From Mycobacterium adipatum (GTDB lineage Bacteria; Actinomycetota; Actinomycetes; Mycobacteriales; Mycobacteriaceae), in NCBI RefSeq assembly GCF_001644575.1, contig NZ_CP015596.1, forward strand, positions 3,906,001-3,970,000: a DNA stretch of 64,000 nt, given 5' to 3'. A program made the translations under genes and the position numbers. How positions within the stretch are numbered: position 1 is the first letter of the stretch; the number at the start of each line of letters is the position of its first letter. Under the pieces are notes generated by a model. The model did not search any database and was not told where the DNA came from. It saw only the letters and a program-made list of their open reading frames with translations. This document shows, piece by piece, positions 13,654 to 44,870 of the stretch.

Positions 13654-13698
13654 TGGACAGCACGACCTGTGATGCGGTAAAGTCGAACACATGTGCGA
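13654..13698 (+). promoter_or_regulatory. Orphaned SOS promoter and LexA box, cut off by the IS
   Basis: -35 TGGACA (13654-13659), an 18-nt spacer and -10 TAAAGT (13678-13683), overlapped by an SOS box TCGAAC-ACAT-GTGCGA (13683-13698). The mycobacterial consensus is TCGAAC-N4-GTTCGA; the one mismatch lies in the sequence brought by the insertion element. The original right half (GTTCGA) now lies at 15096-15101. Before insertion this was the leaderless promoter and operator of the DUF222-HNH gene. Now it reads into the end of the IS. Confidence 0.75.
13687..13694. repeat. Left 8-bp target-site duplication (ACACATGT)
   Basis: Identical to 15090-15097 on the other side of the element. Eight base pairs is the usual duplication length of ISL3-family elements. 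Confidence 0.85.
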
Positions 13699-15089
13699 CT
13701 CCTCATGTTTTCGTGGGTAGTTTTGGGCGTAATCCGCCGAGGCAGAGGTAGATCATTGCGGTCAGCGCTCGGGCGGAGTGGTGGCCGTAGCCGCGGGCGT
13801 TGATGAGGCGAATCTTGGCGTTGATGCCCTCAATGAGGGCGTTGGATATTCCGAGTTCGACGGCGGCGATGACGGCGTCGAAGTGTTCTTGGAGGCGTTT
13901 GCCGAGTTCGACGAATGAGGGGATGCGGCTGCGTTTGGCCGCAGTGATCCAGGCCTTGAGGAGTGCGCGAGCGGCGCCGGGTTCGTGATCGAGTCGGTAG
14001 AGGTCGCGTAGTTGTTCTTTGAGGGTCCATGCTCGTCCGACGCGTCGGCTGGCGCGCGCGATCTGGTTGACCAGTGCCCGTTTGGTGTCGTTGAGTTTGT
14101 TCTCACCGGTACGCAGGGCCCATCGGGTTTGACGCCATTGTGCTGAGGTCATGACGACTTTGTTCGGGCCGCTGGCGGCGTCGGCGAAGACGCGGTCCAG
14201 AGCTCGGTTGACCCACAGCATGATGTGGAACGGGTCAAAGCAGATGGTCGCCTTGGGCACGTGTTCTCGGGCGGCAGCTTGGTAGGCCTTGCTGACATCC
14301 ATGCTGACCGCTTCGATGGTCTCCAACGCCGAATCTGGTTGGGATTCAAAGAATGCTGCGAATGAGTCTTCGCTGCGTCCGGTCTGGACATCGATGACGG
14401 TTCCGGTGTCATGATCGCCGATGATGGTCAGATAGTGGTGCGGGTGGCGGTAGCAGATCTCGTCGACACCGATGCGGTAGAGGGTGTCGAGTCGGCGTTG
14501 ATCAAGCAGCTCATCGACTCCGCGGGTGATGATCGAGGTGACCGATTCCCAACTGCACCGCATCAGGGTCGAGACCGTCGTGCGGTCGGTGCGCTGAGCA
14601 AGCCACAACACCATGTCTTCGAAGTCTCGGCTGAACCTGGCTCCCGGTCGGGCCCAGGGCACGTCTTCGGTGATGACCCCGCAATCCGGGCAGTGCAACC
14701 GGCGGATGCGGTAAATCAGCCATAGTCGTTTCGTGCCCAGGTCGAGGTGGCGCCATCGCCGCCGGCGACGGTCATAGACGGCCCTCACGCGTTTGCTGCA
14801 GGGGCAGGTCAGCAGCCGCGTTTTGGGCCGTACGGTGACCTCTACAACGTGGTCCCCGATCGACACGTCGACCACCGATGCGCCGGGGATCTGAAGAAGA
14901 CGGTTAAATGCAGTACTGACGCGCACGCGGATGGATCCTCTGGTTGAGGTTGGTGTGGTAACCCCGAAACCTAGAGGCACACCGCGTGCGCGTCCTTCAT
15001 CTCTACGCTGACACGCCGAGAGCGCTTGTGCTGCAGTATGAACCGACCCTGAACAGCAGAAAAGCGCCCACTAGAACACTAGGAGCGCC
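13695..15089 (-). mobile_element. ISL3-family insertion sequence, 1,395 bp, single transposase
   Basis: The ends were set by the 8-bp duplication ACACATGT on both sides. Imperfect terminal inverted repeats match at 20 of the first 30 positions: the left end reads GCGACTCCTCATGTTTTCGT, and the right end read inward GGCGCTCCTAGTGTTCTAGT; both continue with GGG, three mismatches, TTTT. The only gene is the transposase, whose stop lies inside the left repeat. The element looks intact and potentially mobile. It sits inside a former LexA SOS box and directly before the DUF222-HNH start codon. Confidence 0.9.
13703..14926 (-). CDS. ISL3-family transposase
   Basis: 407 residues from GTG 14926, chosen for the upstream AGAGGA ribosome site (9 nt) and because family members begin like VRVSTAFNRLLQIPGAS. 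A GTG at 14980 would give 425 residues. An N-terminal zinc finger of the ISL3 type is present (CPCSKRV ... LHCPDCGV), then the RNase H-like DDE core with IGVDEICYRHPHHY, AVSMDVSKAYQAA and the C-terminal glutamate in SNALIEGINAKIRLI. No frameshift or stop is seen, so it is probably active. Unlike a typical housekeeping gene, it carries its end in the terminal repeat of the element. Confidence 0.93.
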   Translation of the reverse strand: MRVSTAFNRLLQIPGASVVDVSIGDHVVEVTVRPKTRLLTCPCSKRVRAVYDRRRRRWRHLDLGTKRLWLIYRIRRLHCPDCGVITEDVPWARPGARFSRDFEDMVLWLAQRTDRTTVSTLMRCSWESVTSIITRGVDELLDQRRLDTLYRIGVDEICYRHPHHYLTIIGDHDTGTVIDVQTGRSEDSFAAFFESQPDSALETIEAVSMDVSKAYQAAAREHVPKATICFDPFHIMLWVNRALDRVFADAASGPNKVVMTSAQWRQTRWALRTGENKLNDTKRALVNQIARASRRVGRAWTLKEQLRDLYRLDHEPGAARALLKAWITAAKRSRIPSFVELGKRLQEHFDAVIAAVELGISNALIEGINAKIRLINARGYGHHSARALTAMIYLCLGGLRPKLPTKT

Positions 15090-15097
15090 ACACATGT
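15090..15097. repeat. Right 8-bp target-site duplication (ACACATGT), contains the HNH gene start codon
   Basis: A copy of 13687-13694. The ATG inside it (15094-15096) is the start codon of the downstream DUF222-HNH gene, so the transposition duplicated the start codon. Confidence 0.85.
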
Positions 15098-16359
15098 TCG
15101 AACAGTTCGGCATCGAGGACCTCCGCGACCGCGAGGCGGCGCTGCGAGATCGCATCGCCGAACTGGAACGGCAGAAATCGATCGCGGCGGCCGAACAGGC
15201 CCGCGCCGCGGCGCAATGGGACGCCGTCCGCCGCCAGATCGAAGCCAGCGCCGGGGTGCCGACCGCACGACGTGGGCGCGGGCTGGCCTCGGAGATCGCG
15301 CTCGCGCGCCGCGACTCCCCCATCAAGGGTGATCAGCACCTCGGATTCGCCAAGGCGCTGGTACACGAGATGCCTTACACGCTGGCCGCATTGGACGCGG
15401 GCGTGCTCTCGGAATGGCGGGCCACCCTGATCGTGCGAGAGTCGGCCTGCCTCACCGTCGAAGACCGCCGCCGTCTCGATCACGAGATGTGTGCCGACCC
15501 CGCAGCCCTGGATGGACTGGGCAACAAGCGCATCCGAGCCGAAGCCAAGAAGATCGCCTACCGGCTCGATCCACGCGCCGTCGTCGACAAGGCCGCCAAG
15601 GCACCCGAGGACCGCACCGTGTCCACCCGGCCGGCAGCCGACAACATGGTCTACCTGACCGCGCTGATGCCGCTGACCCAGGGCATCGCCTGCTACGCCA
15701 GCCTCAAACGTGAGGCCGATGTCAATCCCGACGGGCGCTCGCGCGGGCAGACGATGTCCGACACCGTCTACGAACGCCTGACCGGACGGTCGGCGGTCGC
15801 ACCGGTGCCGATCACGGTCGACGTGGTGCTCTCCGATGAAGCGCTCATCGGCACCAGCGATGAGCCGGCCGAGGTACCCGAGCACGGGCCGATCCCGGCG
15901 GAGCTGGCACGCCGGCTGATCACCGAGGCCATCGACGAGCGGGGCTGGGTCGCACTGCGCCGCCTCTACGCCACACCGAGCACCGGCGCGCTGGTGGCCA
16001 TGGATTCACGGGCCCGCACCTTCCCGGGCGGGCTTGCCCAGTTCATCCGGCGACGCGACCAAACCTGCCGAACACCCTTCTGCGACGCGCCCATCCGCCA
16101 TATCGACCACGCCGAGCCGCACCGGCACGGCGGCCCCACCGACGCACTCAACGGGCGCGGCTGTTGCGAGCAGTGCAACTACACCAAGGAACAGCCGGGC
16201 TGGCGGGTGAGAACCTACTTCGACCCGGCCGGCCGCCATGTCGCCGAGCACATCACCCCCACCGGGGCGGTCTACCGGTCGACCGCCCCGCCGGTCGCCG
16301 GGGGCCTGCGCATCCTCACCCGCGACGTGCATCTGGTCACCGTGAACCGCGCGGCGTGA
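15094..16359 (+). CDS. DUF222 / HNH endonuclease-like protein (13E12 repeat family)
   Basis: 421 residues from ATG 15094 (MFEQFGIEDLRDREAALRDR). The N-terminal DUF222 domain covers about residues 1-270. The C-terminal HNH nuclease fold reads RRRDQTCRTPFCDAP, HIDHAEPHRHGG and ALNGRGCCEQCNYTKE, so the metal and zinc ligands look intact. This is the REP13E12-type family, several members of which I recall being LexA-controlled in M. tuberculosis. The coding region is whole, but its promoter and half of its SOS box lie 1.4 kb away beyond the IS. An in-frame extension into the IS (ATG 14986) exists. It abuts the convergent methyltransferase gene at 16360. Likely SOS-linked, biological role unknown. 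Confidence 0.88.
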   Translation: MFEQFGIEDLRDREAALRDRIAELERQKSIAAAEQARAAAQWDAVRRQIEASAGVPTARRGRGLASEIALARRDSPIKGDQHLGFAKALVHEMPYTLAALDAGVLSEWRATLIVRESACLTVEDRRRLDHEMCADPAALDGLGNKRIRAEAKKIAYRLDPRAVVDKAAKAPEDRTVSTRPAADNMVYLTALMPLTQGIACYASLKREADVNPDGRSRGQTMSDTVYERLTGRSAVAPVPITVDVVLSDEALIGTSDEPAEVPEHGPIPAELARRLITEAIDERGWVALRRLYATPSTGALVAMDSRARTFPGGLAQFIRRRDQTCRTPFCDAPIRHIDHAEPHRHGGPTDALNGRGCCEQCNYTKEQPGWRVRTYFDPAGRHVAEHITPTGAVYRSTAPPVAGGLRILTRDVHLVTVNRAA

Positions 16360-44024: not shown

Positions 44025-44040
44025 TCGATCATGTGTTCGA
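44025..44040. promoter_or_regulatory. SOS box 1 (chiZ side)
   Basis: TCGATC-ATGT-GTTCGA, one mismatch to the mycobacterial LexA consensus TCGAAC-N4-GTTCGA. It lies in the chiZ promoter region, directly upstream of the candidate -10 (44018-44023, read leftwards). Confidence 0.75.
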
Positions 44041-44044
44041 TGAA

Positions 44045-44060
44045 TAGAACATGTGATCGA
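44045..44060. promoter_or_regulatory. SOS box 2 (second LexA site, tandem)
   Basis: TAGAAC-ATGT-GATCGA, two mismatches to consensus. Its centre is exactly 20 bp from the centre of box 1, two helical turns, so two LexA dimers would bind on the same face of the DNA. Confidence 0.6.
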
Positions 44061-44147: not shown

Positions 44148-44188
44148 TCGAACACATGTTTGATTATCTGTGCGGTGGCGACTACATT
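44148..44188 (+). promoter_or_regulatory. lexA promoter with SOS box overlapping the -35
   Basis: SOS box TCGAAC-ACAT-GTTTGA (44148-44163) is the same sequence I recall before M. tuberculosis lexA. It overlaps a -35 TTGATT (44160-44165), 17-nt spacer, and -10 TACATT (44183-44188). The lexA ATG begins 7 nt after the -10, consistent with a leaderless autoregulated mRNA. Confidence 0.8.
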
Positions 44189-44195
44189 CGGGCAC

Positions 44196-44870
44196 ATGAG
44201 CGACAGCACCGAAACCCCTGAGGCACGCTCCAGCCTGACCGAGCGTCAGCGCACCATCCTGGAGGTCATCCGCACCTCCGTGACCAGTCGCGGGTATCCG
44301 CCGAGCATCCGTGAGATCGGCGACGCCGTCGGCCTGACCTCCACCTCGTCGGTGGCGCACCAGCTACGCACCCTGGAACGCAAGGGTTACCTCCGCAGGG
44401 ACCCGAACCGGCCCCGCGCCGTGGACGTGCGCGGTTCCGACGATGTGGTGACCCCCATCGTGACCACCGATGTGGCCGGGTCGGACGCGCTCCCCGAACC
44501 GACATTCGTGCCGGTGCTCGGCCGGATCGCCGCGGGTGGCCCCATCCTGGCCGAAGAGGCCGTCGAAGAGGTCTTCCCGCTCCCCCGCGAGCTGGTCGGC
44601 GAGGGTTCGCTGTTCCTGCTGAAGGTGGTCGGCGAATCCATGATCGACGCCGCGATCTGCGACGGCGACTGGGTGGTCATCCGCCAGCAGAACGTCGCCG
44701 AGAACGGCGATATCGTCGCGGCCATGATCGACGGCGAGGCGACCGTGAAGACCTTCAAGCGAACCCGCGGTCAGGTGTGGCTGATGCCGCACAACCCGGC
44801 GTTCGAACCGATCGACGGTAACGACGCGGTGGTGCTCGGCAAGGTCGTCACCGTGATCCGCAAGATCTGA
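44196..44870 (+). CDS. lexA: SOS repressor LexA
   Basis: 224 residues from ATG 44196; the frame to 44160 runs through the promoter. N-terminal winged helix ([20 protein letters not shown]), Ala113-Gly114 self-cleavage site (GRIAAGGP), catalytic S148 (VGESMID) and K185 (TVKTFKR). Represses the SOS regulon and itself. The window holds four LexA sites: two for chiZ, one for lexA, and the one broken by the IS at 13,683. Confidence 0.98.

Follow-up and report, generated by a model that had tools for sequence, protein, structure and literature searches.

Introduction

Insertion sequences (IS) that choose their site are already known. Here we describe an IS of the ISL3 family in Mycobacterium adipatum that lies within a LexA operator (SOS box) at the start codon of a gene encoding an HNH-domain protein. 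It was found in a window of 64,000 nt (NZ_CP015596.1, 3,906,001–3,970,000); all coordinates are positions in this window, and the genome itself is coded G000. Among described systems, the p-MULT 3 / TnGBS elements insert 15–17 bp upstream of the −35 element of sigma-A promoters, a specificity that is common to two transposase families (PMC3942029). Some of the IS that target REPs (repeated extragenic elements) insert at the axis of a palindrome, for which the authors suggested a regulator-like recognition; the available part of that paper mentions ISL3 0 times (PMC1525189). The RecA-dependent, damage-induced genes of mycobacteria include five putative HNH endonuclease genes, imuA', imuB, dnaE2 and lexA (PMC8151990).

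The comparison presented below makes it highly probable that the window element is one of a lineage of ISL3-family elements with a transposase that selects the LexA operator of actinobacteria as its target, direct recognition of the palindrome being the likeliest means.

Results

The window element splits an exact SOS box

The element (Table 1) has the hallmarks of the ISL3 family: a transposase with catalytic, helix-turn-helix (HTH) and zinc-ribbon domains (Pfam DDE_Tnp_ISL3 at E 2.8e-58, with HTH_Tnp_ISL3 and Zn_ribbon_ISL3 also matched), an 8-bp target duplication and imperfect terminal repeats. The transposase is 425 aa long, compared with 407 aa in most relatives among the 120 matches listed. 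A sequence search of the PDB returned no credible solved relative (3 matches at E 0.33–0.46).

The two copies of the duplication ACACATGT are identical, and their outer flanks read TCGA at 13683–13686 and TCGA at 15098–15101. Rebuilding the empty target from the duplication and its flanks yields an exact SOS box, TCGAAC-ACAT-GTTCGA, when scored against the 16-bp palindrome TCGAACNNNNGTTCGA (TCGAAC-N4-GTTCGA) that we take to be the consensus of the mycobacterial LexA operator; the same core is found upstream of lexA. An earlier reading of the window made without database searches (the sequence-only reading) had placed the IS within this box and the ATG of the HNH gene inside it. Both statements are borne out, the first by the directly read flanks and 8-bp duplications and the second by the ATG in the duplication at 15090–15097.

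All copies in the genome occupy SOS boxes

Each of the five copies in the M. adipatum genome carries an 8-bp duplication and lies in an SOS box at the same position; the box is perfect for three copies and has 1 mismatch for the other two. The cut pattern in all five is TCGA^ACNNNNGT^TCGA. Copies 2 and 5 resemble each other in their flanks (on one side, 97% across 400 bp) but not in their duplications. The genome further contains 14 intact perfect boxes, compared with 0 for a reversed-pattern control, so that 3 of the 17 perfect boxes (14 intact and 3 occupied) carry the element.

Two sites can be compared with intact relatives. For copy 2, the same genome contains L019, an IS-free paralogue. 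One flank of the copy aligns to L019 as far as base 1512 (78%) and the opposite flank from base 1505 (93% over 44 bases); the two alignments overlap by 8 bp, which correspond to the duplicated part of an intact box at 1501–1516. In genome G1229, an element (L178) occupies the box that precedes a DnaE2-type gene whose M. adipatum counterpart (L016) has an intact box, and the L178 flank aligns to L016 at the corresponding base.

The target is conserved in the transposase clade

Relatives were gathered by transposase similarity, not by site, in overlapping sets that each include the M. adipatum genome: a genus set (9 of 198 genomes at E ≤ 1e-60), a second genus set (14 of 396 at 1e-150), a family set (19 of 301 at 1e-30), an order set (22 of 397 at 1e-55) and a class set (3 of 394 at 1e-75). 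A search of genome contigs for relatives gave 3 loci, a phage search returned 17 records, all with <60% identity, and no relative of the element was found in viral contigs. Junctions were resolved by the 8-bp duplication together with the terminal repeat, and 32 rows in which the duplication could not be read were set aside. The tree, made by a quick method with no bootstrap, comprises 91 rows, 56 of them different; it omits L170 and L073, which share their sites with L075 and L063, respectively.

The clade of the window element consists of 38 rows, drawn from 15 genomes and from one Rhodococcus plasmid; their transposases are 52–100% identical to that of the window. Compared with the 12 fixed bases of the box, the targets show 0 mismatches in 17 cases, 1 in 14, 2 in 5 and 3 in 2; 36 of the 38 insertions are hence at ≤2 mismatches. 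This level was reached at only 5 of 28,812 other positions in the 400-bp flanks. When rows with similar flanks (L005, L043, L046, L129 and L177) are left out, 31 of 33 insertions are at ≤2 mismatches, a count that leaves in weaker flank likenesses between other rows (75–84%). Outside the clade, 50 of 53 ISL3 rows have ≥6 mismatches and the other three form a distant second lineage; the 50 non-matching rows were grouped by their own score in this control, and the tree provides the fair comparison. Given the flank and outside-clade controls, chance is excluded as the source of the SOS-box pattern.

Two copies added later agree with this result (L212, 1 mismatch; L213, 0 mismatches). By identity, 11 of the rows set aside are members of the SOS clade and, to judge by their flanks, represent 8 distinct elements; in each of the 8, one end or both lie at an SOS half-site, with 1 mismatch in several and a shift of 1 base in one. 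Positions 5, 6, 11 and 12 of the clade targets contain 1.82, 1.51, 1.41 and 2.00 bits, respectively, and fit the LexA consensus beyond the outer TCGA. The element thus enters one motif at a fixed position when judged against both controls, as is characteristic of a target-selective IS.

Genes adjoining the insertion sites

From 41 sites, 30 open reading frames (ORFs) were picked by hand, one per site, and scanned against Pfam; the window gene was scanned separately. DUF222 was found above the cut-off in 19 ORFs and below it in 1, and a further ORF matched HNH only. The rest comprised a Y-family polymerase (IMS), a DnaE2-type polymerase, single members of DUF6319, DUF5131 and glutaredoxin, and 4 ORFs with no family. 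On a Rhodococcus opacus plasmid, the first gene annotated downstream of the element encodes NrdH redoxin. DUF222 genes are found at either end of the element, demonstrating that both orientations occur.

Nine ORFs beside intact boxes of the M. adipatum genome were also scanned. Six encode DUF222 proteins, one a DNA polymerase III alpha-type protein, presumably DnaE2 (a name based on the Pfam domains and on the N-terminal sequence), one a radical-SAM protein and one a protein of no family. Eight of the 14 intact perfect boxes (L010–L014, L017, L019 and L021) lie about 80–165 bp upstream of ORFs that share a start of the type (M/V)DATDLDTFVDALIDDLTP; those scanned are DUF222-HNH proteins, and copies 2 and 5 of the element adjoin members of the same DUF222 gene family.

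The split HNH gene and its promoter region

The HNH protein of the window matches Pfam HNH only (E 2.4e-4, limit E ≤ 0.001), and no DUF222 domain was detected in it at this limit; of the DUF222-HNH assignment in the sequence-only reading, the HNH half is supported and the DUF222 half is not. We compared 30 homologous loci including that of the window (57–65% identity outside the own gene). In 26 of the 29 other loci, a box at ≤2 mismatches lies between −150 and +40 relative to the aligned start, in 15 of them exactly over the ATG; 3 have no such box. The window locus has none by the same measure, being split by the element. The HNH domain and the start-codon box, here split, are those of a DUF222/13E12-type gene, and 13E12-like is the label that we assume for it.

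The coding sequence kept its start codon because the ATG falls within the duplicated 8 bp. The promoter-like hexamers upstream of the box (1 pair found, compared with a shuffle mean of 0.3, sd 0.6) are spaced for a transcription start at about the ATG, and we infer leaderless transcription of the HNH gene before the insertion. Joined to the first bases of the element, the left part of the box reads TCGAACACATGTGCGA, 1 mismatch from the box, so that the old promoter retains a box of this quality and now reads into the element. The sequence-only reading left the promoter and a left half-site on this side; the promoter-like pair is present, but what adjoins it is more than a half-site. The same reading had the gene cut from its control. 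This wording is too strong, since the ORF and its ATG are whole, an AGGAG motif precedes the ATG by 8 nt and the 1-mismatch box persists on the promoter side. The AGGAG, contributed by the element end, might permit translation of the HNH protein from transcripts leaving the element, and terminator-like stems near both ends might stop incoming transcription.

These stems lie just inside the two element ends (13702–13717 and 15080–15063) and face incoming transcription; 4 are found in the region, compared with 1.2 ± 1.2 in shuffles. They possibly shield the transposase gene against transcription from host promoters. Control of the transposase itself by an SOS box was considered and rejected, the element containing a single match with 3 mismatches (13878). 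The re-formation of the box by the left element end was likewise rejected as a design feature of the clade. The GCGA responsible for it is not general there: it recurs in L044, L167, L168 and L175, and other members have GCTA, GCGG, GCCC, GGCG or CCCT.

None of 19 relatives (20 loci compared in all) has an HNH homologue beside the neighboring trm-type gene, over about 1.5 kb to either side as far as the contig extended, and the HNH gene therefore seems to be accessory. The flanks of the window site resemble those of L026 in genome G139 (77.6% over 192 bases), which holds a related element in a second species; the start-codon box of an HNH-type gene is struck at each site, and the L026 ORF has no Pfam match. 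The window also contains lexA, with two further SOS-like boxes, at 44025–44040 (1 mismatch) and 44045–44060 (2 mismatches), between it and a divergent gene.

Table 1. Positions of the insertion sequence, its target and associated features in the 64,000-nt window
Feature	Position	Strand	Remarks
Promoter-like hexamers TGGACA-18-TAAAGT upstream of box	13654..13683	+	consensus match only
Left 12 bp of SOS box (TCGA + duplication)	13683..13694	+	
Left copy of 8-bp target duplication ACACATGT	13687..13694	.	read directly in sequence
ISL3-family insertion sequence, 1,395 bp	13695..15089	- (strand of transposase)	5 genome copies, 98-100% identical
Imperfect terminal inverted repeat	13695..13716	+	15/22 positions match opposite end
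Transposase, 425-aa ORF, longest ORF of element	13703..14980	-	Pfam DDE_Tnp_ISL3, HTH_Tnp_ISL3, Zn_ribbon_ISL3
Imperfect terminal inverted repeat	15068..15089	-	AGGAG 8 nt before HNH ATG
Right copy of 8-bp target duplication ACACATGT	15090..15097	.	HNH gene ATG inside; read directly in sequence
Right 12 bp of SOS box (duplication + TCGA)	15090..15101	+	
HNH-domain gene, 421 aa, ORF intact	15094..16359	+	HNH PF01844
SOS box TCGAACACATGTTTGA upstream of lexA	44148..44163	+	8-bp core same as insertion target
lexA, repressor expected to read box	44196..44870	+	Pfam LexA_DNA_bind E 3.4e-29, Peptidase_S24 E 5.6e-33

Other ISL3 lineages

The second SOS lineage comprises 3 near-identical rows from genomes G220 and G429 (35% identity) that lie apart in the tree. 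Targeting of SOS boxes requires at least two changes on this tree (a quick tree of long rows), and two gains within ISL3 are the simplest reading. Further members, scored by eye, are L105/L180 (1 mismatch; poor terminal repeat, 10/22) and L183 on the Rhodococcus plasmid pRWAY02 (2 mismatches); L184, a 49% relative, lies outside such boxes. Targets of the second lineage are looser at the centre than those of the main clade, as seen in L055 (ACTGACCT) and L183 (ATCCGTCT), and this lineage may read TCGA-N8-TCGA. The two SOS lineages share four transposase residues that are rare in other ISL3 elements, including one threonine in the HTH region. With three near-identical rows representing the second lineage, these residues are a weak lead to determinants of specificity.

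The target of a third lineage (21 rows) is a long palindrome of another kind, around ATAWWTAT. This lineage corresponds to L081–L120 from genomes G596, G517, G691, G781, G774, G754 and G765, and its insertions lie at the centre of a long palindrome such as TGCCTCAGAGGC-ATAAATAT-GCCTCTGAGGCA. Intact sites of this type (L185–L190), which lie within longer palindromes, were seen in 2 of 6 genomes, G691 (6) and G774 (3); a REP-like element and an operator are candidates for what these palindromes represent. The remaining 29 rows occupy other, mostly AT-rich, sites.

Discussion

The selection of the target, the position of the cut, its conservation in the clade and the intact relatives of some sites are all read from the sequences. 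From them we infer direct readout, gating by the SOS response and an effect on expression, as follows. The cuts lie symmetrically 4 bp inside each end of the 16-bp dyad, and the central 8 bp are duplicated; a two-fold symmetric transposase complex would read the palindrome itself. Access to the target would be best when DNA damage removes LexA by cleavage. At the window site, the element entered the start-codon box, leaving the ORF whole and separating it from its promoter; control of the gene would thereby be altered in one direction or the other.

Several observations weigh against this interpretation or limit it. Given the similar flanks of copies 2 and 5, the five own copies may represent four independent events. 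Two insertions of the clade, L173 and L176 (both from G1229), lie in weak boxes with 3 mismatches; the target of a sister element, L164 (45% identity), is unrelated to the SOS box; and the SOS-side end of L172, one of the rows set aside, is present a second time at a non-SOS sequence. Copy 3 (L003) is bounded by the ends of two ORFs and adjoins no recognisable SOS-controlled gene, which indicates that a gene start is not required for insertion. DUF222 genes neighbor most of the recognised sites, and part of the pattern could reflect retention where harm is low; the exact positioning makes retention alone insufficient. Finally, the targeting is known from sequence comparison, and direct readout and a role of LexA appear indistinguishable by the present evidence.

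The copy 3 site, together with the looser centre of the second-lineage targets L055 and L183, would be expected if the transposase read a general TCGA-N8-TCGA palindrome that overlaps the LexA box and has no link to SOS. We regard this as unlikely, since positions 5, 6, 11 and 12 of the main-clade targets are informative and fit the LexA consensus beyond TCGA, and several insertions are at SOS-type genes.

In another scheme, LexA or a LexA-bound complex would recruit the transposase, so that insertion follows the protein and not the sequence. Such recruitment agrees with the presence of lexA in the window and with the match between the targets and the LexA consensus, which extends to the boxes preceding two DNA polymerase genes. 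Elements tethered by a bound protein, however, generally insert beside that protein, whereas these insertions are at the centre of the dyad, at bases that hardly ever vary and that bound LexA would obstruct; the copy 3 site, moreover, adjoins no recognised SOS gene. Direct readout is favored over recruitment because bound LexA should block cuts that, like these, are made within its own site, and we consider a recruiting LexA improbable.

Selection without targeting, in which elements insert at random and survive only in harmless 13E12-type boxes, could draw on the 19 of 30 scanned site ORFs that are DUF222 genes and probably dispensable. It leaves the near-constant use of the same two cut bases unaccounted for in DNA that is rarely box-like nearby (5 of 28,812 flank positions). 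Related genomes contain other ISL3 elements that persist at AT-rich sites, and some insertions precede DNA polymerase genes, which are not obviously harmless; we hold this account to be very improbable. One chance insertion in one SOS box, the single unlucky event of the sequence-only reading, is permitted by the window alone and scarcely credible beside five of five genome copies and dozens of insertions in relatives: by this comparison the window insertion is a case of target selection, which that reading overlooked.

Going beyond recognition of the LexA operator by the transposase, we tentatively propose, while regarding it as rather doubtful, that SOS-box targeting is an evolved ISL3 strategy with at least two origins. 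The transposase would mimic LexA recognition, compete with LexA for its operators and enter the SOS regulon chiefly after damage-induced LexA cleavage, which would couple its targets to stress and repeatedly rewire damage-inducible genes. If the targeting described here is correct, it provides an example from nature in which a transposase and a repressor have converged on a single palindrome, and it implies a recurrent rewiring of the actinobacterial SOS regulon, mutagenic polymerases included. SOS boxes would then be mappable from insertion sites, and the opening of targets by DNA damage would be directly testable. With a second SOS-type lineage and a third directed to another palindrome, ISL3 would offer a system for studying the evolution of target specificity in DDE transposases.

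Relation to known systems

The window element shares with the ISL3 family at large the transposase domains, the length of about 1.4 kb, the 8-bp duplication and ends of the type GGCNCTCCT. It differs in its target: the 50 non-matching insertions are at AT-rich sites or in another palindrome, whereas the window lineage is at the SOS box. Among the matches listed from the open-access literature other than bioRxiv preprints, no title or beginning of an abstract reported IS targeting SOS boxes.

With the p-MULT 3 / TnGBS elements, the window element has in common a transposase-specified entry into host regulatory DNA; those elements belong to another transposase superfamily and keep a fixed distance from a promoter instead of inserting inside a repressor operator (PMC3942029). 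Some REP-targeting IS resemble it in inserting at the axis of a palindrome, but their targets are repeats and not the operators of a named regulon (PMC1525189). The mycobacterial LexA regulon counts HNH genes, dnaE2 and lexA among its members, as do the genes considered here; IS aimed at its boxes are not described in the accessible part of that report (PMC8151990). Compared with these systems, the window element would represent a site-selective ISL3 element that uses the operator of a global stress regulator, a new class of target.

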